Under the pieces are notes generated by a model that saw only the letters and a program-made list of their open reading frames with translations, searched no databases and was not told where the DNA came from. A stretch of DNA of 64,000 nucleotides from Siphonodentalium dalli. Its lineage: Eukaryota; Mollusca; Scaphopoda; Gadilida; Siphonodentaliidae. This document shows positions 2,145 through 62,143 of the stretch, in pieces. How positions within the stretch are numbered: the stretch's first letter is position 1; each line of letters starts with the position of its first letter. Position numbers and translations under genes: made by a program. The DNA is taken from contig CP136063.1 of assembly GCA_032622095.1 (NCBI GenBank), forward strand, positions 72,209,980-72,273,979. Direction: 5' to 3'.

Positions 2145-2885
2145 TTTTAAAGTTCAACTTGACTTCTCAAGATTTAGCTATCGCCATGAGTTCATGTCCG
2201 TCCTCCGTGTGTCCGTCAACAATCCCCATTAGCATGGATGATATATGCGCTACAGGTCGCACCTTTGGTCTGGTCGTTATGAAATTCGTCATGGTTGTTG
2301 ACATTGACATGTAGATGAGAAATTAGTCATTTTGGGGTAAATCCAGGTAAATCGACAAGAAAACATGACCAACAGCCACCATCTTGAATTTCACAATTCA
2401 ATCAATTGGCCACGCAGGCCGTATATACCATTTGTGTGATTATAATGAAATTTGTCATGGATTTTGACATTGCCATGAAGAAGAGAACGAGTATTTTTTG
2501 CGTCAATCGGCAAAAGAGCATGGCCGCTATCGGCCATCTTGTTTTTGAGTATTAAGAAATGTAAATACATAAGCACGGTGCACGGGCTACATGCCGTACC
2601 CTATGAAAATTGTCATGGCTGATTACATTGACATTTAGATGTAAACGAGTCATTTTGGGGTCATTTCACACCAAAAATATGGGGGCCAGCGACCATCTTG
2701 GATTTCAAAGTTCAATCCATTAGCAGAAGACACGCCGGAGTGTTCGTCTGATTATCATGAAATTTGTCGTGGAATTAATATTGACTTGTGGATGAGAACG
2801 AGTCATTTTGGGGTCATTCAGCCATAAAACATGGCCGCTGGTGGCCATCTTGGATTTTACTCTTTTTATGACTAAATTCGCATGC
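2145..2885 (-). mobile_element. Family A pearl/Helentron-like element, 3' end and first core repeats
   Basis: Read on the minus strand, this is the 3' part of a family A element. The degenerate terminal hairpin (agttcaacttgacttctcaa) is followed by the word catggcgatag-like and a purine/pyrimidine tail, then by about four core units. Each unit carries the words aaatccaagatgg, catgttttt, aaaatgactcgttctcatc and aaatttcatgat. Long open frames across it are repeat translations, not genes. Confidence 0.75.
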
Positions 2886-4565
2886 TACAGGTCGTAGCAT
2901 TACAACCGGCTGTTACAATATTAATTTTCCCACAAAACTTCTCCCACAAAATGGTAAATTAGGTTTTAAAAAATGTATTTTTTTTCGGGCGGTATAGAAA
3001 AAAGGCATTGAAATGCTGCCGCTAGGCTTTAGGGAGTGCGCGAGAGGGGTCGTGTAGACCCTTCTCGCAGGTGGGGGTCCGGGGGGCCTCCCCCGGGAAA
3101 ATTTTGGGAAAAGTAGAAGCTTGAGAAGCATTCTGAGCATATTTCTGAGTAGCATTATGCGAATGTTAATTGGACCAAAATTAAAACAATATTAGTCCGA
3201 GAGCTGATAGGACACCCCTGCACCCCATGATTCAAATTCACCCCACTAATTTTCTTCTTTATTAGTCCCTCAACGTTTAAGCAATGTTAGACCGGAGTGT
3301 TCGTCTGATCATCATGAAATTTGTCGTGGAATTAATATTGACTTGTAGGTGGGAACGAGTCATCCTGGGGTCATTCGGCCATAAAACATGGCCGCTGGTA
3401 GCCATCTTGGATTTTACTCTTTGTATGACTAAATTCACAGGCTACAGGTGGTAGCATTACAACCGGCTGTTACAATATTAATTTTCCCGCAAAACTTCTC
3501 CCACAAAATGATAAATCAGGTTTTTAAAATGCTTTTTTTTCGGGCGGAATAGAAAATAGAAAAAAGATATGGCGCCGCTAGGCTTTAGGGAGTGCGCGAG
3601 AGGGGTCGTAGACCCTTCTCGCAGGTGGGGGTCCGGGGGGCCTCCCCGGGAAAATTTTGGGAAATGTAGAAGCTTGAGAAGCATTCTGAGCATATTTCTG
3701 AGTAGCATAATATGCGAATGTTAATTGGACCAAAATTAAAACAATATTAGTCCGGGAGCTGATAGGGTAACCCTGCACCCCATGATTCAACTTCACTCCA
3801 CTAATTTTCTTCTTTATTAGTCCCTCAACTTTTAAGCAATGTTAGGCCGGAGTGTTCGTCTGATCATCATGAAATTTGTCGTGCAAGTTAATATTGACTT
3901 GATGGTGGGAACGGGTCATTCTGGGGTCATTCGGCCATAAAACATGGCCGCTGGTAGCCATCTTGGATTTTACTCTTTGTATGACTAAATTCACATGCTA
4001 CAGGTGGTCGCATTACAACCGGCTGTTAGAGTATTAATTTTCACACAAAAGTTTTCCCACAAAATGATAAATCAGCTAGGTTTAAAAAATGCATTTTTTT
4101 CGGGCGGAATAGAAAGAAAGAAAAAGAAATGGCGCCGCTAGGATTTAGGGAGTGCGCGAGAGGGTGGTAGCATTACAACCGGCTGTTACGGTATTAATTT
4201 TCACACAAAACTTTTCACAGAAAATGATAAATCAGTTTTTAAAAATGCATTTTTTTCGGGCGGGAATAGTAACGAGGTAAAAAAAAAATAGCGCCGCTAG
4301 GTTTTAGGGAATGCGCGAGAGGGGTCGTAGACCCTTCTCGCATGCGGGGGCCCGGGGTGTCCCCCGGGAAAAATTTGGAAAATGTAGAAGCTTGAGAAGC
4401 ATTCTGAGCATATTTCTGAGTAGCATTATGCGAATGGTAATTGGACCAAAATTGAAACAATATTAGTCCAGGAGCTGAGATAGGGTATCCCTGTACCACC
4501 GTGATTCAACTTCACCCCACTAATTTTCTTCCTTATTAGTCCCTCAACTTTTAAGCAATGTTTGT
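2886..4565 (-). repeat. Higher-order tandem repeat, unit about 556 bp
   Basis: The anchor cattacaaccggctgtta occurs near 2898, 3455, 4011 and 4171. The first two intervals are 557 and 556 bp. Each full unit joins one family A core repeat to a roughly 400 bp module containing a GC-rich stretch (agtgcgcgagaggg, then g/c-rich gggtccgggggg and cccggg) and a stretch around agaagcttgagaagcattct. The third unit is cut after about 160 bp and restarts with the anchor, the mark of an internal deletion by recombination. Confidence 0.85.
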
Positions 4566-4671
4566 ACGAAACAAAGCGTGTCAGAACAGTCACCAGGCAT
4601 GATGAGATGGCGTCCAACATGGACATGTTTTTTTTCATAAGGATGCAAATTAGTGAGAAAATTATATATTT

Positions 4672-6266
4672 GTATCTCAACTTTACTTTGTAAAGTTTGA
4701 ACTATTGCCATGGCCTGGTATCCGTCGTCTGTGTGTGCGTGGTGTCAACAATACAGCCTACGTGCAATACCTTTATTCGGATCATTATGAAATTTGACAC
4801 AGCTGTTGACATTGACATTTAGATTAGAACGAGTCATTTTGGGATCATTCGGGGAAAAACATGGCCGCCAGTGGCCATCTTGGATTTAAAATTCAATCCA
4901 TTAGCACAGGCTACAAGTCGTACTGTTCGTCTGATCATCAATTTGTCATGGGATGTTTAAATTGACATGTAGATGGGAACGAGTAATTTTGGGGTCGTTC
5001 CTCTAAAAATCTTGGATTTTACTCTTTGCATGACTAAATCCTTTGGCACGGGCTACAGATCGTACCTTTGGTCCGATCATTATGAAATTTGTCATTGCTG
5101 TTGAAATTGACATGTAGATGGGAACGAGTCATTTGGTAAAAAAAACATGACCGCCAGTGACCATCTTGGATTTCAAACTTCAATCCATTAGCACGGGCTA
5201 CAGGCCATACTGCTTGTCTGATTATCATGAACTTTTCGTAGATATTAATATTAAGATGTAGATGGGAACGAGTCATTTTGGGGTCATTCGGCCATAAAAC
5301 ATTGCCGCTGGTAGCCATCTTGGATTTTACTCTTTGTATGACTAAATCCTTTGGCACAGGCTACAGGTCGTATCTTCGGTCAGATCATCACTAAATGTGT
5401 CATGGATGTTAACATCGACATGTAAATGGGAAACGAGTTATTTTGGGGTAATTCAGCAAAAAATGTGGCTGCCAGCGGCCATATTGGATTTCAAAATTCA
5501 ATCTTTTATCATGGGCTACAGACCATACTGTTTGTTTGATCATCATGAAATTTGTCATTTATATTAACATTGACATATAGATGGGAATGGGTCATTTTGG
5601 GGTCATTCGGCCATAAAACATAGCTGCTGGCAGCCATCTTGGATTTTACTCTTTGCATCACTAATCCTTTGGCATGGACTACAGGTTGTAGATTTGGTCG
5701 GACCATCATGAAATTCTTCACGGATATTGACAATGACATGTAGATGGGAACGAATCTTTTTGGGGTCAATCGGCCATAAAACATGGCCGCTGGCAGCCAT
5801 CTTGGATTTTATTCTTTGCATGACTAAATCATTTGGTATGGGCTACAGGTCGTACCTTTAGTCGGATCATCATGAAATTTGTCTTGGCTGTTAACATTGA
5901 AATGTACATGGGTAGGAGTCATTTTTGGGGTCTTTCGGCATAAAACATGTCTGTTGGCAGCCATCTTGGATATTTGCATGACTAAACCATTTGGCACACC
6001 CTACAGTGCACTTCCCTCATCCGATCATCACCAAACTTCATATTAAACTTGATATTGATCTACTAGATGGAAGCTTTTACATATTTTTGAATTTCATTGG
6101 ACAACATAGCCGTCAGCAACCATCTTCGATTTTACTTTATGTATCTCATGGTGATAATCTAGTATTACTTAGCCCTTTCAACTTTCCGCATTCCTAATCG
6201 CTCCATTGACTGTAACACATGAAATTATTCCCTTTCCAAATCGAGCTACAGTACCATTGACACTTT
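4672..6266 (-). mobile_element. Complete family A element, minus orientation
   Basis: Both ends are visible. The 3' end (low coordinates) has the hairpin aactttactttgtaaagttt preceded by ctca, a tail with a gtgtgtgcgt-type microsatellite, and ccatggc. The 5' end (near 6266) reads, on the minus strand, aagtgtcaatggtactgtag, followed by a degenerate subterminal repeat. Between them are about nine core units of about 160-190 bp, each with atccaagatgg, ggccatgtttt, aaatgactcgttcccatcta and aaatttcatgatgat. It has no coding capacity for a transposase. Confidence 0.8.
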
Positions 6267-6555
6267 GATTTGTGAAGCAGGCTGCTTCTAGAAGCAAAGA
6301 TATAATAGTGCCTTTTTAGGTTAATATTGGAACTCTCCATCAAAGAAAGCCGCCAAAATGGCAGCAGGAAGTGGAAAATAAGGAAGAAAATTATTGTGGC
6401 GAGGTTAAATCACTGGCGATCAGGGTTACACTATCATCTCTCGGATTATATTCATTGTCATTAACATTTTCGAGCAATGTACTGCGAATCCACCAAACAG
6501 TATAACTGAAGTCATCTTGGAATATAGTTTTTACATGACTAAATCCTCAACATGG

Positions 6556-6722
6556 CATACAGTAATGCTCTAATTAATCGACTCCTCAACCACAACAAAA
6601 TTATGGGTAACTTTTCGCTTTCTGATAAATTGCAACAAGCCATATTTCCGACTAAATCCTGAAAAGTTACCCATAATTATGCTGTGGTTAAGGAGTCGAT
6701 TAATTAGAGCATAACTGTATAG
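6556..6722. mobile_element. Foldback MITE with near-perfect 60-bp arms
   Basis: The arms 6556-6618 and 6660-6722 are inverted copies sharing ctctaattaatcgactcct, then accacaacaaaattatgggt with one or two mismatches, and gttaccc...ttttc. The loop is only about 42 bases. The outer ends atacagt and actgtat also pair. Confidence 0.85.
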
Positions 6723-6739
6723 CCATAATTTTCAAAACG

Positions 6740-6990
6740 ACCAAATTGTGTATGAAGATAGATAACTCTAAAATCAAGTGGCTTTGTGTTGATAATAAAG
6801 CCAATTTTTAAAGAACATGTTGATAATACATTTTTGGAAAGTTTATACCACAATTGACAGTGGTTTGAATTATTTTGTTGTAATTAATGGATTCTGATAA
6901 CTAAAGTGTATTTTGAAGAAATATTGTTGTTGTAATGTGGTAATATGGGGACCATCTGATCAGCATGAGTACCTTTGAAAATACTAGTGC
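6740..6990 (+). repeat. Family H dispersed repeat, right part
   Basis: The words gataactctaaaatcaagtgg, ttgataataca, ttgacag, gattctgataac and atggggacc...gagtaccttt recur in the same order at 39360-39574, and some recur at 11380-11600. The right end aligns with the TIR (gagtaccttt) of the full copy at 11112-11597. Confidence 0.65.
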
Positions 6991-8470
6991 AGCAAATTAA
7001 CAGATGCCTGCTCCAGATATACATGTATGGCATAATGGCAAATTGTTATATGATAAATATCAATGATGAGTGAGTACGTGTGATCATTAAATTTGCCTAC
7101 TATATATTGTACTATGACGTAATCATTCATCATACAGATGTATAGCCTAAGGGCCCTTATTTATAATCTATGTCCCTATATTGACATCTGTATATACATC
7201 ACCTCCACCCACCCTGATCTTAACAACAATCCATATATACATGATACATTTCATGGCAGTATATACTACCATATCCTGATCCAAAACGGGTATTGCATGC
7301 ATTAGTTTTGATGGAATAATGAAGACAAACTAAAAACAATATAATAAAAAAAAGGATTTTATTACTTCATCAAAGTATTGTATTATTCAATATTCAACAA
7401 CATCATTCAAGTTGATAAAGAAGAGAGAACAATGTAATTTAGTCATTGATCTCAGTATTTCTTAATTTGTTAAGACCTAAGTGCAGTACAATGAAATGTA
7501 TTAACTTTTTCAAAACATCATTGCATTTTGAAGCCTGAAATTATGCTTACTTCTGTTACATTGCGGTCGATTTCATAATATCAAATTATGTACATTATTA
7601 AACTTTTATGTAAATATGGTATTTAACAAGAATGTCAAGATTTGGAACAGCAAATCATACACTGAAAATTGATTGTTATTTTCTATACTTCGGTAAAGCG
7701 GTATATCAGAAAAATATATTGAACATAATTTAGTCATTGATAAGGGTTCCCTTCGATCATACATTTCCATTTCATTCAACTTGAAAATCAGTAACCCACA
7801 TATCTGTACATCATGAGCAGTAAATTCATTTTATATGTTGAATGTGTTAATTGTATAACTTAATTAAAGTCTTTATTCATTTTAAAAGCAATTTAGAAAT
7901 GTAACCATTCTAATATGAGTGAAGATTCGGCATAACTACCCATAGCAACATGGTCATCTTCTAACCTGTGACCACAGCGAAGGTGGTCTTATGGTCATAA
8001 TGGTGTATAATAATCTAACTTTCATGTTAAATTACATATAGAAAATTCCGGTTTATTAGGACTAACATCTTTTTTTTTACATTTAGCTGATAGTCGAAGT
8101 GTTCTGTAATGCACTCAGCAGTCTCAGCTAAATCCATCTTATGTGCAGTCAATTGATTTTGCCCATAACAATTGAATGCACCCTTATTCAAACATTGTGT
8201 CCTGTTAATATTCCCATCACTATTAAGTGTTTATTTTTATTGTAGATGGTCCTATATTACTTATTAGTTAAACAGTTCTTACACAGAATGTCTCACGATA
8301 TATAAGCAATTTTAAATTTACAAATTACCAGGTATAAGTGATAGAATTAATTCAATTTACAACCACGTGGTTTTGATTATGTTATTTAGAATATTTTCTC
8401 CGGAATATGCTGATGTCACTTTGTGAGGTCATAAGTTTAAAAATATGTGAACGCTGCAGTAAATGACTCA
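6991..8470. other. No gene seen; AT-rich intergenic or intronic DNA
   Basis: I see no splice-bounded open frame, no RNA gene and no repeat with a second copy that I could recognise in this stretch. Confidence 0.5.
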
Positions 8471-8472
8471 TT

Positions 8473-9757
8473 AAACTAGAGGTGTGACTGTCCCAATGGG
8501 ACCAAGGATACCCCCTGTGTTTTTAAAATACTAAGATGTTTCACATGTCAGTAAACATTTAGTTAAAATAATAAAATAATAGTTGCCATTCCAGGTGCAC
8601 AACCCTAACCCTAATCTTAAACATATTGACCAAAAAATATAGGAATAAAAGCTTGGACAAAATTATGCACGTCGAAAAAGGGGAATTACTCCACAAAAAA
8701 GTCGGACAGACATCGTAATCGCAGGTGCACAGGTTCCCATGGTACTAAAAAAATTCTAAGTTCAAAAGGGGGGATAACTCCACCAAAGAATGTCGGACAG
8801 TAGTCATAATCGCAGGTGCACAGGTTCCCATGGTACTAAATATCTGTGCCAAGTTAAACAAAAATTGACCTAACAATGTAGGAATAAAAGCTCTGACAAA
8901 ATTATACATGTTGCAAAAATGTTCTAAGTCAAATAAGAGGTGCGCACTCGAGTGCTAGCATACCCCCACCATGTCAAATTCAACCCGCATTATCCGTAAA
9001 CCCAACAAAAAAGATTTTTAACTTTAAAGAAAAATTTGGACTAATAACATCGATATGGTGTCACAAGAAGCTTGTACAGAAAAAAATATTCAAATTGGTT
9101 CATATTTGTTAAAGTTATTAAGTCGGACAGAATTTTATAAGTCAAAATAAGTCGAAAATGAAGTGTAATATTACGAAAAACAGTCTGAGTCAATCCCTAG
9201 CCGCACCATGTAGAGAGGATATTATGAGAAGCATGTATACCAACAATTATTGAAATCGGTTCATATTTGTTAAAGTTATTAAGTCGGACAGAATTTTCTA
9301 AGTCAAAATAAGTCGAAAATGAGGCGCAACTTAAATATAAAAGTCGGACCGAACCGCAATTAGCATCATGCAGTCCTAAGGAGATTGCATACAAACAATT
9401 AATGAAATCGGTTCATAGTTGTTCGAGTTATGAGGTCGGACAGACGGACAGATGGACACACGGAGGGAGAAAGCGTGACGGACAGATGTAGTCAAACCAG
9501 TATAGCCCCCATTTTCTTCGAAAGTGGGTGTATAAAAAGGGGGGGGGGGATAACTCCACAAAAAATGTCTAACAGCAGATGCACAGGTTCACATGGCGGT
9601 TAATGTCTGTGCCAAGTTTCACTGAAATTGATTTAAAAAACGACTGAGAAAAACTCCGGACAAATTTTAGTCCACAGACGGACGTACGGAAGAGCTGACT
9701 GAGCCTGACTCCAGTATACCCCCCTAACTTTGTTGTGGTGGGGGGGGGGTATAATTA
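8473..9757 (+). mobile_element. Family B pearl/Helentron-like element, interrupted by family C
   Basis: The 5' end reads aactagaggtgtgactgtcc with the small palindrome gtcccaatgggac, then the subterminal ggatacccc. The core has units of about 185 bp with taggaataaaagct, ggacaaaattat, ggataactccac and cgcaggtgcacaggttccca. The element is split at about 8932, where family C (8933-9538) is inserted, and resumes at 9539 with ggggataactccac. The tail has gacggacgtacgg, then the hairpin around tatacccccctaac...ggggggtataa. The same family is intact at 32375-33158. Confidence 0.8.
8933..9538 (+). mobile_element. Family C pearl/Helentron-like element, nested in family B
   Basis: The 5' end has agaggtgcgcactcgagtgc (palindrome gcactcgagtgc), then the subterminal gcatacccccacc. 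Core words are ggttcatatttgttaaagtt, attaagtcggacagaattt and aagtcgaaaatgag. The tail has gtcggacagacggacag, then a hairpin of about 33 bases around tatagcccccat...aaagtgggtgtata, ending in aaaaa. A second copy is at 27928-28500. Confidence 0.8.
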
Positions 9758-9918
9758 CTGCTTTCAATTGACAACTGATGTGGTTTTCAGAACAAATATG
9801 TCTTCTGTGGAATAAACCCATTTATTGTTGCAATTGTGATATTTGATTACATTTAATTGTGGTTTTATGTGAGCTGGTCACTAACGCATAAACTATGTAA
9901 AACAAATGGTAATGGGAT

Positions 9919-9985
9919 GTTCTTGTACTAAAACTAGCATCTTGCTATCCCAATATTTTAGCTGGTTTTAGTACGAACAGACACC
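9919..9985. repeat. Small inverted repeat
   Basis: The words tcttgtactaaaactagc and gctggttttagtacgaac are inverted copies with a short spacer that contains a second pairing (tgggatgt/atcccaata). It is the size of a remnant foldback element. Confidence 0.55.
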
Positions 9986-10490
9986 CGGAAACCAAAATAA
10001 TCGTCAAACTATAAGTCAACAAGGACTATAAACTCCAGTTAAAATAGGCCGACGGAACCCAAATTCTAACTTTACCTATATTTTCATATGAGTAATCCAT
10101 TTTCTAAATTTGAAAACAATCAGATAACTGAAACTAAAGTTATCACCAGGGAACCATAAATAATTGGCAAAGTCAACAAGGACCATAAACTTCGGCAAAT
10201 ATGGGCAGCCCAAATCCATGTAATCTACATACAAAATTTGAAAACAGACAGACAACTAAAGTTATCATCCGGAAACCGAAACTATCGACAAATTCTAAGT
10301 CGACAAGGACCATAACTCTGGCAAAACATAATGGGTGGAACCAAACTTGACCTGTATTTTTGGCTAGTAAACTCACTTACATTATTTCAATCCATTCAGT
10401 TCAGATTTACAGAAGATATCATCCGGAAATGAAAATTGAGTACAAATTCCAACAAAAAAGGCCATAACTCTGGTGAAAATTGGCCGGCTG
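9986..10490 (+). repeat. Family D-related core repeats (degenerate)
   Basis: About three degenerate units carry ggaaaccaaaat, gtcaacaaggac, cataaactc, ggaacccaaa and gttatcatccggaaa in order. They resemble the family D core but lack its two ends. A related fragment is at 18055-18232. Confidence 0.65.
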
Positions 10491-11111
10491 AATGAATTGG
10501 CACCTTGTGACACATACAAGTATGCCACACGATATAGTATTTATGTAAAATATGCTGGCTTTTTATGATTGTGCAACATGTCATATATAGCTACTGATTT
10601 TGTCATTAATGACTGAAAGTTTTTGGGCATACATGAACCTTCAACAATATTCTAATAGATTACTTTGACATCACATAAGCTTACAAGTAAATACCAGATG
10701 GGAGTCTCATAAGCTTTTTCATTGAAAAATATAAATGTTTATTTGATTGAAATTTAACAAAACTACCATGCCCATATGATTACCCCGAAAATATTTAAAA
10801 GTTGAAATATGTGATGTGAAAAAAAAATCTAGTTATACTGATCTAACCAAGCCAATCAGTTCAGTGCATTTATGAAAAGAAAATGCCAAACTCGGAACTA
10901 ATTGCAACAGTAGTTTTCTTTCCATGAATAAGTATATAAGCCCATTATAAACAATTAACATCTTAAAAACCAAGAAAAGGAAAATAGAAAAGGGAAAAAA
11001 TCAAGTTCTTATGTCCTATTTTGTGGTAGTGCATGTATTTCAAAATACCATCTTGATTACAGAACAGATAGCAGTATTTTTTCAAGTGATATGCTTCTAG
11101 GTTTGTAAATT

Positions 11112-14034: not shown

Positions 14035-15273
14035 TTAAACAAGAGCATGCCGTCGGGGCGTGGGCACAATATGCCCTTTCTGGAGTAAAGTGGGGCACGG
14101 TTTAATTCATTCGTTTGAAACATGGTTCAGTTCACTCGATTCAATATAAAGTTATCATCTGGAAACTGCATATCAGGTAAAATCTGAGTCGAAAAAGGGG
14201 CATAACTCAGTCAAAATCATGTGGACAAAACCCATATTCGAACTTGTTCTGTATTTTGGGGTGGTAAACTAACATACCCGGTACCGAATTTGGTTCAGTT
14301 CACTCGATTCAATCAAAGTTATCATCCGGAAACCGCAAATCAGGTGAAATCTAAGTTGAATAAAAGGTTGTTAGACCTCATGTCCGCCGTCTAAGCGTTG
14401 GCTTGATACGACCGTTGTTTGCGCATAAAAATTGGCATGGCGGAACCCGAAATCGAATTTGATCTGTCTTTTGTGCTAGTAAACCTACATATACCAAATA
14501 TAATATCATTCAGTACACATTTACTAAAGTTATCATCCGGAAACCTCAAATTGGCAAAAATTCTAAGTAAAAAAGGGACATAACTCTGGTGAAAATTGGC
14601 GGGCGGAACCCGAATTCGAACTTGATCTGTGTTTTGCTGGGAGAAAGACACATACCAAATTTGGTTTAAATGTGATTAACTCTACTAAAGTTATCATCCG
14701 GACACCAACTTTTGGGGTTTTATATGTCGGGTCGGCGGACAAAAAAGGGCTATAACTCTGGCAAAAATTATCGGATTAAACCGAAATCCAAACTGAGCTG
14801 TTTTTGATATAAGTGATCCACAAAAAAACGGGTTTTGCATATAAACAATCAAAAATCAAGTTATCATCCGGAAACCAAAAAACAAGAAAAACTTAATTTT
14901 CTATGTCGAAAAATGGGCATAACTCTGCCAAAAATGGTCGGGCAGAACCCAAGTTCGAATATGACTTGTGTTTTGCTTCGAGAAAGTAATATACCAAATT
15001 TGGTTTGAATCCGATTAACTCTACTAAAGTTATCATCCGGAAACCAACTTTCAGGGGTTTTCTAAGTCAAAAAAGTCAAAAAAGGGGCATAACTCTGGTG
15101 AAAATTGGCGGACGGAACCAGAATTCGAACTTGACCTGTCGTTTCTGCTAGTAAACCCACATACCAAATTTAATTTGGTTCACTCTAACTAAAGTTATCA
15201 TCCGGACGGACGGCGGACCGACAGACAACCCATTTCCATAATACGACCTTTTTTCAAAAGGGCGTATAAAAAG
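14035..15273 (+). mobile_element. Family D pearl/Helentron-like element, long copy
   Basis: The 5' end reads aacaagagcatgccgtcggg, then the subterminal aatatgcccttt. Several core units carry ccaaatttggtt, cagttcactcgattcaat, aaagttatcatccggaaacc and gggcataactc. The tail gacggacggcggaccgacag leads to the terminal hairpin (atacgacctttt...aaaagggcgtat) and aaaaa. The 5' subterminal word and the 3' hairpin share the complement tacgccctt/aagggcgta. Confidence 0.82.
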
Positions 15274-15275: not shown

Positions 15276-15455
15276 ATTGAAGCTCTGGTTAAAATGGGCT
15301 TCCTGGACCTCTATAGCATTTAGTTCAAGAACTACATGGGTTATGATCCGGAAACCAAAGGTTCACAGAAGGACATCTGATGGCAAAAGAGACATGGATG
15401 GATGGAGAGACTGATTACATAATACAGTTTTTCAAATGGCATTGGTGTATAAATG
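15276..15455 (+). repeat. Family D-related 3' fragment
   Basis: The stretch carries ctctggttaaaatgggc, gttatgatccggaaaccaaa, a gatggatggagaga tail and a degenerate end (ataatacagtttttcaaatg, then gtgtataaatg), directly behind the full family D copy. Confidence 0.55.
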
Positions 15456-15863
15456 TTATTAGTATAATTATTCCACACCCATTGACATAAGGCACTTGTG
15501 TTCAATGGAATCCCAGCTATTGAATGCATAGTATTGTATACCTCTACAACTATTTTTGTTGACATTGTCGCCAAGTAAGATGGCTTAAATAAGTTCAATA
15601 ATCTGCTTCTGGTGATGCCCCGATCATTACTGGTTATTCATCAGACATAAATCACAATAGAGGTAGCTATAGTATCAACGAAGGTGACAGTCATTGATTA
15701 TCTGACACAACTGTGTAGAATAAATACAAACACAACTTGTATCATAATCTCAAATCATTTATCAAACTTGTTGCGGATATTTCTCTTTCGTGAAATATAT
15801 CCATGCATCATCCACAATTCATTCGATAAAAGATTCTTGATTACGGGTCAGGCGCACATTTTG

Positions 15864-16756
15864 CCAAAATTTCCTGGTATTTCAAAATGGATTCTGTCTA
15901 TGTATACCAGACTTTCATTTTTAGAAAATGTAGGCGCGCATTGTCTCGCTCGCTGGGTTTTGGGCCCAGGCGCGCAGTTTCTATCAAGATAAAATAAACA
16001 GCGGATTGCCGGAAACACATTCATAAATGCCGTGTAAATTGAATTACCGGTAGTTTACATGTAACTCACGATCGATGTCCAGTGAATCTCTTTGATGGTT
16101 TAACACTGCTTAATCCACTATCCATAAGCACAAGTGAATGTCACACACTATGTTTTATATTGTACATGCTCCTATATTAATTGTAATTCATAATTATTAA
16201 TAAAGAATCAATTTAATACTCCGATTCCATGCTGACAGAATAATATCAATATCTCCCGGCCACGTGGTCTCGCTTTGATTTTCCAGAAATTTATGTGACG
16301 TCATAAGCCATACATATAAATCATTCAAATGTATTTTTAGCTTAAACGAATCATCCAGACAGATAGTGCATTCGACACCGTGTGACCTCAAATAATTTAC
16401 TGGTGTCGGTAATCAAACATCGGGCGGGTTGATTGACACCGCACTGTGAATGGAAAGTTGTGGAATTGGTAACTAGGTCGCGGCACCTTTGATCTCGCGA
16501 CACATCATACAGGCATTCTCGCAACGCGCTAATAAAACGGAAAATGGGACACATTATTAACCAATCTTGTCTGGGTAGACACTAAAAATAGCGTTATCAG
16601 GTTCGGCCAACTTCGCTCTCTGTATTTGGCCTAGGTGTGCAATCGATCGCTCGCTGGTTTTCAATTTCAGGCGCGCGATGGTGCGCAAGAGCGATCGCGT
16701 GCCTCAAAAATGAAAGTCTGGTATACAATTTTCTCAAAATCTGGTAGGAATTTCTC
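15864..16756. mobile_element. TIR element of about 0.9 kb with CpG-rich arms
   Basis: The left arm (15864-15935) carries aaatttcctggtat, gtataccagactttcatttt and ggcgcgcattg. The right arm (16680-16756) is its imperfect inverse (aaaatgaaagtctggtatac, ccagattttg, ggaattt). Both arms contain a ctcgctcgctgg-type word and gcgcgc words. I see no transposase gene between them. Confidence 0.65.
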
Positions 16757-16759
16757 TGT

Positions 16760-17925
16760 GAAATTTGGTTTAAGTGATAATTGTTGCACAATATTTCAGA
16801 ACCATCGACCAATTTGATATTATAACCTCATTTACTTGACTTTTATGCCATATGGCATGAAAAAGATTTAAAATTTCACTGTTTTCATGTGTCAAGAACT
16901 TCTGTAAAAATAGTTTTTTTTCAAAAGTGCATTTCATATATCCATGAGACCATATCTCAAGATCATGAGACTTTATTATACTTAATTTAATGATTATTTT
17001 CATTAAGAAAGAAAAGTACCCCATAAAAAATTATCAATATTTGAGGATTTTCATGCCATGGCTGTTGATCAATGAACAATTGGGCTGAGATGAGTTGTGG
17101 GTCATGGGTTCACAATTATTCTAACAGTTCTGGGTACCAAAAGGGGTGAAAATTAAATTAATATTTTCAACCTCTCAAATGTTTTATGTTATAATACATT
17201 GTTTTGTTGTGTCTTAATAATTGCTCAGAACACAATGAAGATGACCATATATATGTGAAATTCAAGATTGTTTTGCCAGATAGATCCAGAGAATTTTTTT
17301 TTTGAAAATCTCTTGCATTTTTGACTGGATTTATGCAAAATATGTATCTCCCCTTTAAGAGGCATGTTGTGTTCTGTCAATATATACCATACACTAGTAC
17401 TGAATTATTCAATTAGATTATACGCACTTGTAAGAGAGTTGCTATCTGTTCCTTTCTTTCTATCACTCCGACTCATGTGATAATGCTAGATAGTCCAAGC
17501 TAACATGTGAATTATGTCATATTCGGAATAACTGAAAGATTAAAAAAAATACAATCTATTAATCTCTTGGCTGCTACATGTGAGTACAACAGGCCCATGG
17601 GGAAAATTACTAAAATACCAATATAGACTATACCAGTATGAGTACGGACCTACTACAGAATACAGTTGCTCATTATTCAAAACAGGAATTAAGAAATTAG
17701 TACATGGGAACAATTGTATCTGGATGTTTGATAAAGTGTATGATGTTCCAGGATTGTGAATGAGAAAAGCCATTTTACGGAGTCAGTGATAATGTTTTTC
17801 GATATTGCTGTTATATTTTTCGAAGTACATGATCGAACTATAATGTCAATGGCTTTGCACACAACATCATTCAGCAGTGAAGAAGTTAATAATATAAGTC
17901 ATTAATAGGTTGTTTCCATATTGGC
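16760..17925. other. No gene seen
   Basis: AT-rich DNA without a supported exon. A single arm (ggcccatggggaaaattact at about 17592) matches the foldback at 55058-55168. Confidence 0.5.
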
Positions 17926-17927
17926 CG

Positions 17928-17992
17928 AGTTATGAGGCCGATGTCTGCCATATGGGCCGAAGGCTAATATGACAGACCGAGGCCTCATAACT
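17928..17992. repeat. 65-bp hairpin with long arms
   Basis: The arms agttatgaggccgatgtctg and its near-inverse cagaccgaggcctcataact flank ccatatgggccgaaggctaatatg-like sequence that also pairs (catat/atatg). Transcribed, it would form a stable stem. Origin unknown; possibly a small foldback element. Confidence 0.7.
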
Positions 17993-18054
17993 TGTTTATG
18001 AAAAAAAACTTATGCTAACCGGTAGAGATGGTGAAACTGTTTTCCTGCCGGTGA

Positions 18055-18232
18055 GATAACTAAAGCTAAGCTCTCCCACGGAAACCAAAATAAAGGTCAA
18101 ATTATAAGCCAACAACGATCATAACTCTGGTAAAAAAGGGGGATGGAACCAAAATTTGAACTTTACCTGTATATTCATGAGTAATCGATATACAAAATTT
18201 GAAAATAATCCGATAAAAGGTCATACCATCAA
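18055..18232 (+). repeat. Family D-related fragment cut by the following palindrome
   Basis: The words ggaaaccaaaataaaggtca, ataagccaacaacgatcata and actctgg...ggatggaacc match the degenerate units at 9986-10490. The match stops where the palindrome begins at 18233. Confidence 0.6.
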
Positions 18233-19879: not shown

Positions 19880-19884
19880 CCAAT

Positions 19885-20640: not shown

Positions 20641-20660
20641 GCATTGTGTTGATTTCATAG

Positions 20661-20889: not shown

Positions 20890-20890
20890 A
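20885..20890 (+). terminator. AATAAA hexamer overlapping a stop codon
   Basis: The hexamer contains the TAA that ends the candidate exon at 20661-20889. It supports that exon being terminal, but hexamers are common in AT-rich DNA. Confidence 0.35.
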
Positions 20891-20945
20891 AATCATGTCA
20901 TATACCATAATAAACCTGTTATTGCTGCAATGGATTGATTTGGGC

Positions 20946-21054
20946 TTCGCATCATGTCCAGTTGAAGAGTTTTGATCGCTGATCAAACTCGACGCCTGCG
21001 GCGGCTTATTTGTTACGATGATCTCACCTCTTCAACTCGACGTGATGGTTCGCC
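20946..21054. repeat. Small foldback, about 110 bp
   Basis: The words cttcgcatcatgtccagttg plus aagag and ctcttcaactcgacgtgatg are inverted copies around a CpG-containing centre (actcgacgcctgcggcgg). It is locally more GC-rich than its surroundings. Confidence 0.55.
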
Positions 21055-48889: not shown

Positions 48890-49800
48890 CATTTTAATCA
48901 ACGATGTTACCCGAACTGCGTCAAATTGAGCCAAAAATGGTAAGGCCTGTAGTCTGTGTTAACGGATTGATTTTTGGCCACTGACCGCCATGTTTTTTTG
49001 CCGAAAGGCCGCTAAAATGACCCGTTCCCAGCTACATGTTATGACAAATTTCAAAATGATCTGACCAAAGGACTTGTAGCACGTGCTAGTGGGAATTGTC
49101 GGATGTACACATGCACACACAGCATATCATGGTCAGAAAACAGGGTTCCCCAACATATCTCTGTATTCATCCCTATCCCTTTTATTGGTTACCCCCGAAG
49201 CGACATATGATGTTTGGTGATGACCTGATGAGGGATGTGGTCTGTAGGGTGTGTCAAAGGATTTATTCATCTAAAGAGTAAAATCCAAGATGGCTGCTGA
49301 CTGCCATGTTTTTCTTAACAGATTTCAGATAAAATTGATGGCTCCCATCTATAGATCACCCTGATGATCCATGTGAAATTTGGTGACGATCAGATGAGGG
49401 ATATGTTCTATAGGGTGTGCCGAAGGATTTGGTCAAACAAAGAGTAAAATTAAAGATGGCGGCAATGTTTTTCATAAAAAATCCTTCAAAATTTTATAGC
49501 TCCAAGCTAGAGGCGATCCTAAACATGCCTGTACATTATCAAAACATTTCTTCAATAAATGTGGAATGCAAAGTGTGCTGATGGATTTAAATTTGAAATC
49601 AAAGTTACTGCTGGCGGCCAAGTTTTTCAATGAAATTCGGAAAAAATTGATGGTTCCCATCTACATGTAGAGGTCTCACTGTTGGGTGTGCCAAAGGAAA
49701 TTGTTGATGGATGGATGGATGGACTGACGGACAACGGATACCAACTCATGGCAATAGCTCAAACCTCTGAAACCTGACTTTGTCAAGTTGAGCTAAAAAT
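48890..49800 (+). mobile_element. Family A element, diverged copy lacking a clear 5' end
   Basis: Core units with ggccactgaccgccatgttt, aaatgacccgttccca and tgacaaatttcaaaatgatc start near 48945. Two units around 49260-49480 have aagatggctgctgactgcca. The tail is a gatg repeat (gatggatggatggatgg). The 3' end is ctcatggcaatagctcaaac, then agttgagctaaaaat. Confidence 0.7.
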
Positions 49801-49849
49801 TATTCATTTATATTACTGTATCCACATATCATGATAGACATTATGTATA

Positions 49850-49990
49850 CCTTATCAGTTTTCAGCTATCTCTGGGATAATATCTTGATCAAATTCTGGT
49901 CGCTCACATTATTATCCATATATATATATATATAATGTAGCACTTTGAGTTCCAGGATCCTTAATGATAATGAAAACAAAATTATGAATA
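49850..49990 (+). repeat. Family K dispersed repeat with a TA microsatellite
   Basis: The words tcagttttcagct and taatatcttgatcaaattct match the other K copies. A (TA)n run of about 16 bases follows at 49918-49934. Confidence 0.55.
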
Positions 49991-50233
49991 ATCCTTCACT
50001 AATCATACAATAATAATCCTTGTACACAATAATCCAGAGTAAATTCCAAGACGGTGGCCATTTTTTAAACAAATTTGAATTTTTTTTATGGCTCTGATCT
50101 GGTTGTCATACTGAAGATCTATATTAAGTTTGGTGACAATCGGATAAGGGCTTGCAGGATGTGCCAAAGGATTCACCATGGAAAGTGTAAAATTCATGAT
50201 GGTCACCCCAAAGAACCATATGAAGTTTGAATT

Positions 50234-52760
50234 AAAGTGTCAATGACACTGTAGCTCAACTTGGAAAGGGAATAATTTCATGTGTTAAAGTCAATGGAGT
50301 GATTAGGAATGTGGAAAGTTGAAAGGTCTAGTTATGCAAAGAGTAAAATCTAAGATGGCCGCTGGCAGCCATGTTTTTTTGCCAAATGATCCCAAAAAGA
50401 CTCGTTCCCATTTACATGTCATTATTAACATCCAGTACAAATTTCATGATGATCTGACAAATGATACGACCTGTAGGCCGCGCCAAAGGATTTAGTCATG
50501 CAAAGAGTTAAATCCAAGATGGCTTCTGGTGGCCATTTTTTTTGGCCGAATGACCCCAAAATGACTCGTTCCCATCTACATGTCAATATTAACATCCTTG
50601 ACAAATTTCATGATGATCAGACAAGCAGTATGACCTGTAGCCCGCGCCAATGGATTGAATTTTGAAATCCAAAATGGTGGCTGGTGGCCATGTTTTTTGC
50701 CGAATGACCCCAAAATAACTCGTTCCCATCTACATGACAATGTCAACATTCATGACACATTTTATAAAGATCGAACCAAAGGTACAACCTGTAGCCCGTC
50801 CTAATGGATTGAATTTTGAAATCCAAGATGGCCGCTGGCGGCCATGTTGTTTGTCCGAATGACCCCAAAATGACTCCCATCTACATTCCAATTTCAACAG
50901 CCATGACAAATTTCATGATGACCAGACTGAAGGTACGACCTGTAGCCCGTGCTAAAGGATTTATTTTAGTCATACAAAGAGTAAAATCCAAAATGGCTGC
51001 TGGCGGCCATGTTTTTTTGCCGAATGACCCCAAAATGAATCGTTCCCATCTACATGTCATTGTTAACTTCCATGAACAAATTTATGATGATCCGACCAAA
51101 GGTACAACCTGTAGGCCATGCCAAAGAATTCAGTCATGCAAAGAGTAAAATCTAAGATGGCTGCCGGTGGCCATGTTTTTTGGCGGAACAACCCAAAATT
51201 ACTAGTTTCCCATCTACATGTCAGTATTAATATCCATGACAAATTTCATGATGATCAGACAAACAGTACGACCTGTAGCCTGTGCTAATGGATTGAATAT
51301 TGAAATCCAAGATGGCCACTGGCGGCCATGTTTTTTTCCCGAATGAACCCAAAATGACTCGTTCCCATCTACATTTCAATGTCAACAGCTATGAGACATT
51401 TTATGATAATCCGACCAAGGGTACGGCCTGTAGGCCGTACCAAAGAATTTAGTCATGCAAAGAGTAAATCTAAGATGGCTGCTGGCAGCCATGTTTTTTG
51501 GCCGAATGACTCCAAAATTACTCGTTCCCATCTACATGTCAATGTTAACATTCATGACAAATTTCATGATGATCAGTCCAAAGGTACGACCTGTAGCCCG
51601 TGCTAATGGATTGAATTTTGAAATCCAAGATGGCCACTGGCAGCAATGTTGTTTGTCCGAATGTCCCGAAAATGACTCGTTCCCATTTACATTCCAATTT
51701 CAACAGCCATGACAATTTTCATGATGATCAGACTAAAGGTACGACCTGTAGCCCGTGCTAAAGGATTTAGTCATACAAAGAGTAAAATCCAAAATGGCTG
51801 CTGGCGGCCATGTTTTTTGACCCCATCATAACTCAATACCAACTACATGTCAATATTAACATCCATTTCAAATTTCATAATGATCCGAAAAAAGATACGA
51901 CCTGTAGACTGTGGTAATGGATTGAATTCCGAAATCCAAGATGGCCGCTGGCTGCCATGTTTTTTTGGCCGAACAACCCAAAATCATTCATTCCCATCTA
52001 CATGGCATTGTTAACATCCATGACAAATTTCATGAAGATCCGACCTGTAGCCCGCGCCAAAGGATTTAGTCATGTAAAGAGCAAAATCCAAGATGGCTGC
52101 TGGTGGCCATGTTTTCTGGCCGAATGACCCCAAAACGACTCGTTCCCATCTACATGTAATTTTTAACATCCATGACAAATTTCATGAAGATCCGACAAAA
52201 GCTATGACCGGTAGCCCGCGCCAAAGGATTAGTCATGTAAAGAGCAAAATCCAAGATGGCTGCTGGCAGCCATGTTTTTTGTCCGAACGACTCCAAAATC
52301 ACTTGTCAATGTTAACATATATGACAAATTTCATGATGATCAGAGGAACAGTACGACCTGTAGCCCGCGCCAATGGATTTAATTTTGAAATCCAAGATGG
52401 CCACCAGCAGCCATGTATTTTGACCCCAAAATGACTCATTCCCATCTACATGTCAATGACAACATTCATGACAAATTTCATAAAGATCAGACCAAACGTA
52501 CCACCTGTAGCCCGCGCCAAAGGATTTAGTCATGCAAAGAGTAAAATCCAAGATGGCTGCTGGCGGCCATGTTTTTGGCGGAATGACCCCAAAATGACTC
52601 GTTCCCATCTACACGTCATTATTAACATCCATGACAAATTTCATAAAGATCAGACCAAAGGTACGACCTGTAGCCCGCGCAAAAGGAAATTGTTGACAGA
52701 CACACACACGACAACCCATGGCAATAGCTCAAACTTACAAAGTAAGTTGAGCTAAAAATA
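50234..52760 (+). mobile_element. Family A element with an expanded core array (about 15 units)
   Basis: Both ends match the compact copy at 43797: aaagtgtcaatgacactgta with gtagctcaacttgg at the start, and ccatggcaatagctcaaact, then agtaagttgagctaaaaa, at the end. Between them run about 15 units of about 155-165 bp, against about four in the compact copy. Units alternate between two versions of the joining segment (caaaggatttagtcatgcaa versus ctaatggattgaattttgaa), so part of the array is a two-unit higher-order repeat. Open frames up to 113 codons across it are repeat translations. Confidence 0.88.
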
Positions 52761-53517
52761 ACGGCTCCTATCTGAGGTCACCCTGAAGATCCCTGTGAGT
52801 TTGGTGATGATCCGATGAGGCAGAAGGCATGTAGGGTGTGCCGAAGGATTTAGTCATACAATGAGTAAAATCCAAGATGGCTGCTGGTGGCCATGTTTTT
52901 CAATAAATATCGAAAACAATTTATGGCTCCAATCTAAAGGTCAGTCAAAAGTACCATATGAAGTTTGTTACAAAGAGATGAGGGATGAGGGACCTGTAGA
53001 CCGTGCCAAAGAATTTAGTCATGCAAAGAGTAAAATTCAAGATGGCTGCTGGCGGCCATGTTTTTTTGCCGAATGACCCCAAAATGACTCGTTCCCATCT
53101 ACATGTCATTGTTAATCTCCCATGACAATTTTCATGATGATCAGATAAACAGTACAACATGTAGCCCGTGCTAATGGATTAAATTTTGAAATCCAAGATG
53201 GCATCTGGCGGCCATGTTTTTTAGCCGATTAACCCCAAATGACTCGTTCCCATTTACATGTCATTGTTAATATCCATGACAAATTTCAAGAAGATCTGAC
53301 CAAAGGTACAACCTGTAGCCCGCGCCAAAGGATTTAGTCATGCAAAGAGTAAAATCCAAGATTGCTGCCGACAGCCATCTTTTTTGGCCGAATGACCCCA
53401 AAATGACTCGTTCCCATCTACATCTCATTGTTAGCATACATGACAAATTTCAAGAAGATCTGACCAAAGCTACGACCTGTAGCCCATGCCAAAGGATTTA
53501 GTCATGCAAAGAGTCGA
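52761..53517 (+). mobile_element. Family A units, truncated copy
   Basis: Four to five further core units follow directly after the end of the preceding element. The stretch lacks the 5' palindrome and breaks off inside the motif gtcatgcaaagagt at 53516, where unrelated sequence begins. Confidence 0.75.
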
Positions 53518-57383: not shown

Positions 57384-57417
57384 GTAAATGGCCATAATAA
57401 AACAAATCTTCAAACAA

Positions 57418-57900
57418 TGAGAGGCCGATCACGATCGGCAGATGTTTAACCCATCCCTTGGCGATAAATAATTGCTATGATCAGAACCATAATCTAGAGT
57501 TTTGATGTCGATTTATAGAGTATGCTGTACTAAAGTAGTATAGACAAATGTACATAATAACACAAATTATTTGAATTTATGGGTCAAAAGAGAAGGGTTA
57601 ATATACATGTAACATCAAAACTATAAATGTTCGAGTTATGGCAGAATGCGTCAATTCTAAGTCGAAAAAGGGCCATAACTCTGTAACAAAACCTAGGATC
57701 AAACCCAAATTCGAACTCGATCTGTATTTTGGGCTGAGAAACCCAAATACAAAATTTGGTTCCAATCGGATAAAAAATGTTTGAGTTGTTTGTCACATTA
57801 CTCGTAAAGTGTCTATGGCAGACAGACGAACGAACGACGAGTGGTCAATCCGAACAATGACACTATGTTTACAATACTATGGTATGGGTAAACATAAAAA
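57418..57900 (+). mobile_element. Family E pearl/Helentron-like element, intact intronic copy
   Basis: The 5' end reads atgagaggccgatcacgatc with the palindrome ccgatcacgatcgg, then the subterminal gatgtttaacccatccc. A core with gtcgaaaaagggccataact and aaattcgaactcgatctgta follows. The tail is gacagacgaacgaacgacga. The hairpin gtttacaatactatggtatg, then ggtaaac, ends ataaaaa. It lies in the SWIM gene intron between 57383 and 58094, in the sense direction. Confidence 0.85.
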
Positions 57901-59202: not shown

Positions 59203-59562
59203 GTATGTATTATTTTATCATGCAAATGAACAGCAATTTAGGCCTAAAAATAGAGATGGGGAATGTCCCTGGTAATAGCTAAGAATTGCAGATTAACATG
59301 GCACTGAAGTGTAAATACTAGTATCTGCATAGTTTAAAAAATTGAAAAATATAATTTAGGAATACAAGCTTTGGGCAAAATTGCACACAAGTCAATTCCT
59401 ATATATCTGGTTATACCCCTCCCAATATAACTTTGTTACGGTGGGGTGCAAAGATATTTCCGATCTGGCTTCAAAACCTAAAATATGTGAAGGTCTATGA
59501 AATCTTATAATTTGAACTGCTTACAACCTTTGAAATGCTTATACAAGCGTAAAATTTTTCAG

Positions 59563-59839
59563 AGAGATAGTCAGCAAGCTGCATTTATGCCAAGACGTCC
59601 ATGTCATCAACAGCCAGGAAAATGCACTGGAAAGTATCAACCACGACATTGGAGCCAGTCTTCCAAAACAATGTGGGCTAACTCTGTTACCTCCATCGGC
59701 CGCACGGAATGTGCACATCTCTGATAAAGGCATACCTAGAAGGAAGAAGAAGGATAAATTTAAGGGCCGGGTTGGGATTCGAGTAGAAATGGCAAGGAAA
59801 AGAGAAAAGGCAATGCAAGAAGGCGAGTCCTACATGTAG
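59563..59839 (+). CDS. SWIM gene, 3' set A, terminal exon
   Basis: The acceptor is aaatttttcag. The first base completes AGA, then the frame reads EIVSKLHLCQDVHVINSQEN, ALESINHDIGASLPKQCGLT, LLPPSAARNVHISDKGIPRR and KKKDKFKGRVGIR before ending at TAG (59837-59839), 91 full codons. The early part looks helical. The end is strongly basic (RRKKKDKFKGR, MARKRE), fitting a nuclear or nucleic-acid-binding tail. A second acceptor two bases downstream would switch frame to a shorter open path. No AATAAA is visible before the family D element at 59967, so the polyadenylation site of this set is unknown. Confidence 0.7.
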
Positions 59840-59966: not shown

Positions 59967-60478
59967 AACAAGAGCACGCTGTCGGGGCGTGGGCACAATA
60001 CGCCCTTACTGGAGTAAAGTGGGGCAAGGTTTAATTCATTCGTTTGAAACTTGGTTCAGTTCACTCGATTCAATCTAAAGTTATCATCTAGAAACAGCAT
60101 ATGAGGTAAAATCTGAGTTGAAAAAGGGGCATAACTAAGTCAAAATCATGCGGACAAAGCAGATATTCAAAATTGATCTGTATTTTGGTGTGTTAAAGTG
60201 ACATACAAAATTTGGTTCAATTCACCAATTCAATCTAAAGTTATCATCTGGAAACCGCAAATCGGGTAAAATCTAAGTCGAAAAAGGGGCATAACTCAGT
60301 CAAAATCATGCGGACGAAACCCATATTCGAACTTGATTTGGTGTGGTAAATTAACATACCAAATTTGGTTCAGTTCACTCGATTCAATCTAAAGTTATCA
60401 TCCGGAAACCAAATACGGACGGACGGACAACCCATTTCCATAATACGACCTTTTTTTCAAAAGGGCGTATAAAAAAAA
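59967..60478 (+). mobile_element. Family D pearl/Helentron-like element, intact copy
   Basis: The 5' end reads aacaagagcacgctgtcggg, then the subterminal cacaatacgccctt. Core units carry cagttcactcgattcaatct, aaagttatcatctgg and cgaaaaaggggcataactca. The tail is gacggacggacaaccc. The hairpin atacgacctttttttcaaaa, then gggcgtat, ends in an A-run. It lies between the two alternative 3' exon sets of the SWIM gene. Confidence 0.85.
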
Positions 60479-60661: not shown

Positions 60662-61972
60662 AGGCCTAAAATTTTTTTTATTTGTTTCCTATTACGGTGC
60701 CAAAAAATTCCAGGTAGGGTTTTTTTTTTTGGTAATATTTTTTGATTTTTTCCCCGAACAGTTAAGTACATTAATGCTTACTCTTTATACTTGTGTTAAG
60801 GCTGTCCATGTATATTTCAAGTAAACAGCTAATGTAGCACAATAATATGATAAGTATTGTCAATGTGAACAAACAAATGCCTCCCAGGCACTCAATTATG
60901 CAGCTCTCTTGTAATTATTCTCTCAGTTTAGATTGTGGTGGCACATCTTCCTCAGAGCACAATATTGACATATAAACAGGCCCAAGATGAACACCATAAT
61001 AGGGCTTGTCTATTACTTTATAATAACATAACTTGTATGATATTAATTCAAACCTCACTTAAATATTTGGTCAAACACCTGAGGACCCAAGACATATCTC
61101 ACATGCGCCTCAGACACATTGCACAGGGTGTAAATGTTCCTCAGACACCCCTCAACTGCACTGAAATATAAAGTCCCACACCACACTGAAAATGGTACCA
61201 CAGGCCACACCGTCAACTTAAATGACTGAGGTACCACACTTCAGCATTCAAATTGGCCCCAACTTTGAAGTTCCTTATACACACTGGCATATGCATGCTT
61301 GTAAGTTTGATACACCCAAACAAACCAGTAGATAATTTCATGTGCATTTTTAGTGCCCATCCCAGAAGGGTGTTTGATATGGTAGATATGCAGTCATCTT
61401 TATACTGTCTGTATACATACTAGTAACTATGCATGAACACTATGAATCCTTGATTGGGTGGGGAGAGGAACTTTAAATTCTGATATAGAATGTCTTCTAT
61501 ATGTATATTGCTCTATAACAGATAAGACTTCTTCCCACAAGATATGGGAGTTGAACAAACAAGATTACCACAGGCAGGTTTTAAAGACTGCAGATTTATT
61601 GGTGAGATTGGGATTCATCTGCAACCACAAATGGACATGTACTCTAGGGATCCAAATAAAAGAAGGGTGCGGAATAAACATAGGGGGTGGAAAATATCCC
61701 AGAATCAAATAAGAGTACTAGTAGGGGGCGGAATAAAAGTAGGGGTTGGAAAAATTAAGGCTATTTTCTAAATATGATTTTTAGTTGTGTTCCACAAATT
61801 CCATCTAAAATTATTGCTGCTTAAAGTAAACATAGTATATATTTAACGACATAGATGTGTTTACATGCATATTACATGCATAAAAGGTTGAAATTTGAAA
61901 AAAAAAGTCCAGGTCGGCCCAATTTGGGCAGGTCGGTCGGGTAACCGGAAACAGATGTTTTTTTTTTGGCCC
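60662..61972. mobile_element. TIR element, about 1.3 kb, within a SWIM gene intron
   Basis: The left end aggcctaaaattttttttat, then ttgtttcctattacggt, is the imperfect inverse of the right end (ggtaaccggaaacagatg, then a T-run and ggccc). Both inner sides carry ccaggta/ccaggtcgg words. The ends resemble those at 36102 and 43307. Frames at 60935-61237 and 61458-61771 lie inside it and have no recognised product. Confidence 0.55.
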
Positions 61973-61996
61973 AAGAGTCAATCACGATTGAAGGTG

Positions 61997-62143
61997 AACA
62001 GAGGCCGATCGTGTGCAGATTTTAACCCATCCCTTGGCGATAGTTAATTTCTTTGATCGGAACCATAATCTAGAGCTTTGATGTTGAATTATCGACCAAA
62101 AAATTAACAGACTACATACCTTTTTTGGAAAAGGGCGTAAAAA
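61997..62143 (+). mobile_element. Family E 5' fragment with a D-like 3' hairpin
   Basis: The start acagaggccgatcgtgtgca, then ttttaacccatcccttggcg, is the family E 5' end. After about 100 bases the sequence ends in a D-type hairpin (accttttttggaaaagggcg, then taaaaac). It may be a chimera of two families or a fusion of two fragments. Confidence 0.55.

Follow-up and report, generated by a model that had tools for sequence, protein, structure and literature searches.

A 64-kb stretch of the genome of the scaphopod Siphonodentalium dalli (assembly GCA_032622095.1, contig CP136063.1, here C3:72209980-72273979; hereafter the window) contains copies of five repeat families, A to E, which are very probably HINEs, that is, non-coding, non-autonomous rolling-circle elements of the Helentron type. 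The five families are additions to an architecture already known from HINE, Pearl, and DINE-1 elements and not a new plan. The genome comprises 2.23 Gb in nine contigs. An earlier account made from the letters of the window alone (the sequence-only reading) had placed one copy of each family and drawn a common order of parts for them; all five copies were found at those places, with edges shifted slightly once further copies were aligned, and the common order proved to be real. Coordinates, strands, and parts are given here in the orientation of that reading, which is the reverse complement of the published HINE convention: under that convention the side with AAYnAGAG becomes the 3' end (CTCTnRTT), the side with the hairpin becomes the 5' end, and GGAC reads GTCC. 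The plan as drawn was largely right but is reversed with respect to published drawings.

One order of parts in five families

In each of the five copies (Table 1), a palindrome with a stem of 5 to 7 bp lies no more than 36 bp from the AAYnAGAG terminus, and a hairpin with a stem of 7 to 10 bp lies within the last 62 bp at the far end. The region of this far-end hairpin (3' in our orientation) had been said to contain the complement of the subterminal word, and it does so in all five families, the arms in D having one mismatch; there the word arm ATACGACCTTTT pairs with AAAAGGGCGTAT (judged by eye), and the best perfect hairpin of D is a T/A stem. Exact complements between the two ends span 11 bp in A (TAGCTCAACTT), 9 bp in B (ATACCCCCC), 10 bp in C (ATACCCCCAC), 10 bp in D (ATACGCCCTT), and 7 bp in E (ATGTTTA). 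The layout was compared with that of 4,000 random segments of the window, with ends outside the HINEs, on three paired measures (palindrome, hairpin, and exact complement). No segment equalled A, B, or C on all three measures jointly, and a single segment each equalled D and E. Some measures are weak when taken singly, namely, the palindrome of D (5 bp, P = 0.26), the hairpin of D (P = 0.10), and the exact word of E (7 bp, P = 0.27). The GGAC-type microsatellite that had been ascribed to all five families is clear in B, C, and D, with 6, 5, and 4 GGAC tetramers in the last 160 bp, but degenerate in A and E, with 1 each. The five copies hold 20 stop-to-stop open reading frames (ORFs) of at least 50 aa (none in D), the longest of 154 aa, and the 10 longest gave no Pfam match at an E value of 0.01.

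The families had also been described as different in sequence. This is true of A, which has nothing significant in common with B to E in a comparison of the five, and C is only weakly related, its similarity to B being confined to stretches with E values of 0.001 or worse; B, D, and E, on the other hand, share a core motif, with 114 bp in common at 74% between D and E (E = 2e-14) and 25 to 34 bp at 85 to 93% between B and D and between B and E. Judged by this core motif, B, D, and E are related, C is weakly so, and A is unrelated. Near their ends, B and C have the subterminal sequence ATACCCCC in common. The core word AAGTCGAAAAAGGGGCATAACTC, common to B, D, and E, occurs at 1,208 exact places genome-wide and at 47,474 places within 3 mismatches, nearly equally on the two strands; its reversed control occurs at 0 and 1 places, respectively. 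DNA searches with each family, in which 40 candidates were scored out of 2,500 to 11,007 first-look candidates, returned 76 matched stretches for A, 46 for B, 42 for C, 45 for D, and 82 for E, and from these numbers all five families are abundant.

Constant ends and unmodified targets

Copies were aligned with their flanks at 17 loci for B, 20 for A (together with the A copy in locus L002), and 10 each for C, D, and E; element edges were taken from these alignments, either end being ambiguous by one or two A's. All 17 B copies start with AACTAGAGG, and at the other end a G-run hairpin leads into [GT]AT and then AA, in 17 different flanks. Copies of C start with AACAAGAGG (9/10) or AACAGGAGG (1/10) and end in GGGGGTAT (10/10), all 10 D copies start with AACAAGAGC and end in GGGC[AG]TAT, and the hairpin ends of E read GGTAAACAT in 10 of 10. 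Family A had been thought to differ at its start, which was not borne out: 14 of 15 A copies begin with AATGAAAG and one with AATAAAAG, so that the first four bases of A had been left outside the element; A copies end in AAGTTGAGC[TC] in 11 of 11 cases. When many copies are aligned, then, the family ends coincide with the palindrome and the hairpin. INE-1 likewise ends in CTCTTGTT.

Three empty sites were obtained, for B and C. The B element of the window, in the context CTCATTA[B]AATTATC, is lacking in two further copies of the host repeat, of which L001 reads CTCATTAAATTATC and L002 has one further substitution; the target is an AAA run from which nothing was lost or duplicated. At the second site, C lies inside B, with AAGTCA[C]AAAAAGGGG corresponding to AAGTCGAAAAAGGGG in B copies, and the C within the B copy at 8474-9752 interrupts GTCGAAAAAGGG, again without loss or duplication. 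The third is a B inside a B in locus L006, which, compared by eye with the B of the window, agrees save for one run A and one substitution. Target-site duplication, which the sequence-only reading had named as a result that would speak against its plan, was present at none of these sites. Seen on the other strand, insertion takes place within TT without modification of the target, matching the description of HINE and DINE-1 elements.

Elements also adjoin one another head to tail. Another AAYnAGAG start follows within 16 bp of 4 of the 57 hairpin ends, where 0.11 would be expected; by family, this was seen in 3/17 for B, 1/10 for E, and 0/10 each for C, D, and A, and an A-A junction was found in locus L052. 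Short-range chaining of elements is supported by these junctions.

Rep-PIF1 genes near family fragments

A search of the genome with PF14214 gave at least 151 matches (150 scored of 457 candidates). Among the matches listed, 14 were nearly of domain length, at 90 to 111 bits, and 11 of these 14 lie inside ORFs of 1,835 to 2,864 aa. The four long ORFs scanned all have the domain order OTU-DUF6570-Rep-PIF1. Five Rep loci (Hn1 to Hn5) were taken at 13 kb each, four of them extended up- or downstream; pieces of five partner copies were compared with Hn1 to Hn4. A C-terminal Exo_endo_phos match was weak in Hn1, Hn2, and Hn3 (E = 0.0064, 8.4e-4, and 6.3e-5), below the Pfam cut-off, and the two ORFs of Hn5 that were scanned had none. 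A Rep motif 2 of the form RG-S-P-HxH occurs at one of the five loci, Hn5, as RGSPHLH. After the Rep-PIF1 ORF with this motif at Hn5 (L029/L030, C3:265.65M) comes an ORF that contains a complete TatD DNase domain (E = 2.5e-37).

Fragments of all five families lie near Hn1 to Hn4 and the partner copies. The family matches at the Rep loci are overlapping, non-independent rows; they run in the orientation of the Rep ORF in 142/142 cases at an E value of 1e-3 or better and in 178/179 at 0.01; a smaller search at these loci gave one further opposite row, a C match on Hn4 at E = 0.009. A search for a Rep-helicase element whose ends match one of the five families had been proposed as a check on the sequence-only reading. 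For this search DNA was taken from 10 of the 14 candidate loci (leaving out C1:61.52M, C3:158.73M, C2:85.25M, and C8:107.31M), and within these 10 no Rep element with both ends matching a family was delimited. In most comparisons homology reached the end of the stretch compared; Hn3 and Hn4 match over about 22 kb, most of the 23 kb compared, with no clear end. Two stretches of 1.3 kb had no Hn3 match, one in L091 and one in L095, the latter lying beyond the Hn3 stretch compared.

Two sets of candidate ends were rejected as the elements' own, namely, a 32-bp 3' end resembling that of A, which immediately precedes the Rep exon of Hn1, and the E-like 3' ends upstream in Hn3 and Hn4, because these are ends of the 3' type placed upstream of the Rep gene. 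At Hn1 (L021, C1:214414000-) and at Hn3 and Hn4 (C2:5.30M and C3:300.74M), what looks like a splice acceptor (..TTTCAG) precedes a ATGCCGAAGA start, and the A-like (Hn1) or E-like (Hn3 and Hn4) 3' end lies 20 to about 210 bp upstream of ATGCCGAAGA, in the would-be intron. The long ORF of Hn3 and of Hn4 begins only further downstream of that start.

Orientation of neighboring elements

All 17 merged family fragments between 8.4 kb and the window's end at 64 kb lie on the plus strand; the four minus-strand fragments are all A pieces, at 2.2 to 6.3 kb. In 10-kb stretches around five B copies on five contigs, neighbors have the orientation of the B in 10 of 10 cases, one stretch having no neighbor. 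AACnAGAG words on the minus strand without a family match number three in the window and one in locus L106.

For the core, A, and SINE-like (short interspersed nuclear element) words, the first 100 places were used; these all lie on C1, so the orientation statistics come from one contig. The first 100 core-word places with exact matching and the first 100 within 3 mismatches are nearly identical, and same-strand loci less than 3 kb apart were merged before pairs were counted. The 100 places of the word AGTCGAAAAAGGG gave 74 loci in 25 runs of one strand, against 37.3 expected (P = 0.0025). Core-motif loci less than 50 kb apart are co-oriented in 38 of 46 pairs, as against about half of the pairs more than 50 kb apart. 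The A and core-motif words are both nearly strand-balanced genome-wide; in C1 0-3 Mb, A loci number 24 plus and 4 minus, and core loci of the B/D/E type 1 plus and 10 minus.

Co-oriented chains of HINEs from different families might arise if the Rep-bound strand were joined preferentially to single-stranded DNA of fixed polarity, or to the CTCTnRTT end exposed by a HINE or Helentron already in place or to a site close to it. The head-to-tail junctions and the co-orientation counts in the window, around the five B copies, at the Rep loci, and among core-motif loci are compatible with this, yet on balance we think it improbable. Two counts speak against it: a control word from the tRNA-like part of the SINE-like repeat is co-oriented in 9/10 pairs less than 50 kb apart, which points to local duplication, and A-core pairs less than 50 kb apart in C1 0-3 Mb are co-oriented in 3/15 only. 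No occurrence of the SINE-like word falls in C1 0-3 Mb, for which it is thus no control. A replication-fork signal is not claimed as the cause of orientation: core co-orientation is lost beyond 50 kb, the SINE-like word is equally co-oriented nearby, and A runs opposite to the core in C1 0-3 Mb. A difference in supply between A runs and T runs was likewise rejected as the source of the window bias, there being 1267 A and 1194 T runs of at least 3 outside the HINEs.

Other features of the window

Further family copies are listed in Table 1 after the five principal ones.

Table 1. Probable HINEs and further family copies in the window (position 1 is its first base; parts in the orientation used in the text)
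Feature	Positions	Strand	Parts and remarks
Family A element	43793-44628	+	start AATGAAAG; palindrome AGTGTCAATGACACT; word TAGCTCAACTT; ~3 core units of ~146 bp; hairpin end AAGTTGAGCT, then A's
Family B element	32377-33152	+	start AACTAGAGG; palindrome GTCCCAATGGGAC; word ATACCCCCC; three 170-bp core units; GGAC microsatellite; hairpin end GGGGGGTAT
Family C element	27929-28493	+	start AACGAGAGG; palindrome GCACTCGAGTGC; word ATACCCCCAC; GGAC microsatellite; hairpin end GGGGGTAT; flanked by D pieces 27733-27819 and 28598-28855
Family D element	59967-60470	+	start AACAAGAGC; palindrome CACGC..GCGTG; word ATACGCCCTT; GGAC microsatellite; hairpin region end GGGCGTAT
Family E element	57416-57895	+	start AATGAGAGG (AACGAGAGG in other copies); palindrome GCCGATCACGATCGGC; word ATGTTTAACCCAT; hairpin end GGGTAAACAT
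A fragments and core array	2245-6266	-	the window's only minus-strand family matches at E 1e-4 or better
Second B copy with nested C	8474-9752	+	B 8474-8931, C 8932-9533, B resumes 9534
D copy with B/E-like core units	14038-15272	+	
D pieces on both sides of C element 27929-28493	27733-28855	+	
E start and E/D core arrays	45875-47484	+	start AACGAGAGGCCGATCG at 45875
A copies with long core array	48940-53514	+	~20 units of ~164 bp at 50322-53514
E terminal fragment	62000-62095	+	

Positions 15300-24000 of the window belong to a giant dispersed repeat; pieces of this stretch match at least 24 other places at 81 to 100% (mostly 92 to 99%), and two copies, at C1:110.8M and C5:70.9M, were traced to window positions 51748 and 50055. 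No stop-to-stop ORF in the window exceeds 167 aa. A 7.2-kb insert at 36103-43306, absent from the L002 copy, looks like a cut-and-paste DNA transposon; its 34-bp terminal inverted repeats (GGCCTAAAAAAATTATACG...) are perfect, and a 3-bp TGA duplication flanks it. A 433-bp insert at 46158-46590, missing in two further copies of the host unit, has a tRNA-like beginning (GTGGTCCAGTGGTTAGCGCG) and is probably a SINE; a 14-mer from it occurs at 874 places in the genome, and ARAGORN found no tRNA gene in the window. Of two exon-like ORFs, that at 58083-58379 matches a SWIM zinc finger (E = 1.2e-7), and that at 59534-59836 has no Pfam match. At C3:199.77M, close second copies of D (95%) and E (99%) lie no more than 3.4 kb apart; it is therefore likely that the D/E stretch of the window was duplicated.

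Discussion

The likeness to Pearl and to DINE-1/HINE elements that had been proposed holds, most of the HINE features tested having been found. HINEs as described by Thomas et al. (2014, PMC4067079) have subterminal inverted repeats (subTIRs) near their ends and a palindrome 8 to 35 bp from the 3' end; some copies contain tandem repeats or microsatellites, and the T-rich targets are left unmodified. The non-coding families A to E resemble them in these respects, as regards the target at the B and C sites; they differ in that the 3' subTIR starts about 22 to 34 bp from the terminus (by eye), against the 38 to 60 bp given there for a mite, and in that an autonomous partner with matching ends was not found at the 10 loci. 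DINE-1, in the description by Yang and Barbash (2008, PMC2374699), has a partial inverted repeat by the 5' subTIR, a GTCY microsatellite, variable central repeats, insertion at TT, and a 3' stem-loop whose sequence differs between species, with counterparts here (for the microsatellite, clearly in B, C, and D), and the Drosophila melanogaster DINE-1/INE-1 subTIR, ATACCCGTTACTC, is comparable to the ATACCCCC of B and C; unlike DINE-1, for which that description gives one consensus per species, the present genome has several subterminal words. In the Pacific oyster, eleven Cg_HINE elements share one plan, some being unrelated in every module, with the autonomous partner left unresolved in that account (Vojvoda Zeljko et al. 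2020, PMC7492417); unrelated HINE families sharing one plan have thus already been reported. Central repeats (about 160 bp in Pearl), GTCY/GTCC microsatellites, and an oligo-T target link A to E with Cg_HINE and with the Pearl, DTC84, and MgE elements cited there, a likeness that is one of published description and not of sequence comparison (PMC7492417).

If A to E are HINEs, a Rep-helicase(-endonuclease) supplied by a Helentron would nick at the CTCTnRTT and subterminal-repeat ends and peel off one strand, and the terminal palindrome or hairpin would mark where copying stops. The peeled strand would then be joined into a T-rich target (an A run in our orientation) without duplication, and the central tandem units and the GTCC/GGAC microsatellite would be passengers.

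Several observations weigh against this classification. The empty sites are restricted to B and C; the E start (AATGAGAGG or AACGAGAGG) is visible at only 2 of the 10 E loci; and the aligned copies are partly non-independent, the 10 D copies representing two distinct flanks and 4 of the 10 C copies sharing one. On the side of the Rep genes, the motif-2 region of Hn2, Hn3, and Hn4 reads RGAKHWH, which is not the published Helentron form, the Rep of Hn1 had no match to the motif-2 search pattern, the 13 kb of Hn5 contained no family match, and the search of the 10 candidate loci yielded no element with family ends.

Within the HINE reading, a single Rep might move all five families by recognizing the hairpin and the octamer instead of the subterminal word, as would fit their common layout and terminal octamer, their different subterminal words, and the fragments of every family beside Rep genes. 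We regard this as unlikely, as no Rep element with matching ends was found at the 10 loci. HINE families are delimited by identity of the subTIR over at least 11 bp, and an autonomous partner has the same ends as its HINE (PMC4067079); one Rep per family is therefore equally possible. The sequence-only reading had gone further, to a shared machinery that reads structure more than sequence, and this is unproven: the terminal octamer has a conserved sequence, ATACCCCC is common to B and C, core sequence is common to B, D, and E, and no Rep element with ends matching a family was found at the 10 loci.

Complementary words near both ends of short non-coding bodies could also suggest miniature inverted-repeat transposable elements (MITEs), moved by a DDE transposase that binds the inverted repeats in a cut-and-paste manner, and Pearl and DINE-1 were formerly filed as such (PMC7492417, PMC2374699). 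This is very improbable: the terminal inverted repeats and target-site duplication of MITEs were not found, the complement being subterminal and set in a hairpin at one end and the three empty sites being free of duplication, and elements are joined head to tail. Canonical Helitrons have a CTRR 3' end. They insert between A and T (PMC5876387), and descent of A to E from them, for which one might cite the Rep ORFs of canonical size (about 1,600 aa) common among the PF14214 matches listed, is very unlikely, as neither A/T insertion nor a CTRR end was seen at the three empty sites and aligned ends, where the termini are AAYnAGAG and ..TATAA and insertion is inside AAA, with a hairpin or palindrome near both ends.

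Taking A to E as HINEs, this work adds five abundant families with well-defined ends, two of them with direct empty sites, and the location of Rep loci with adjoining family fragments makes the question of the autonomous partner directly testable. One core motif, at about 47,000 places within 3 mismatches, travels under differing end sequences. If elements of different families are chained as considered above, clusters would lengthen head to tail with members of several families and be carried along by the giant host units.

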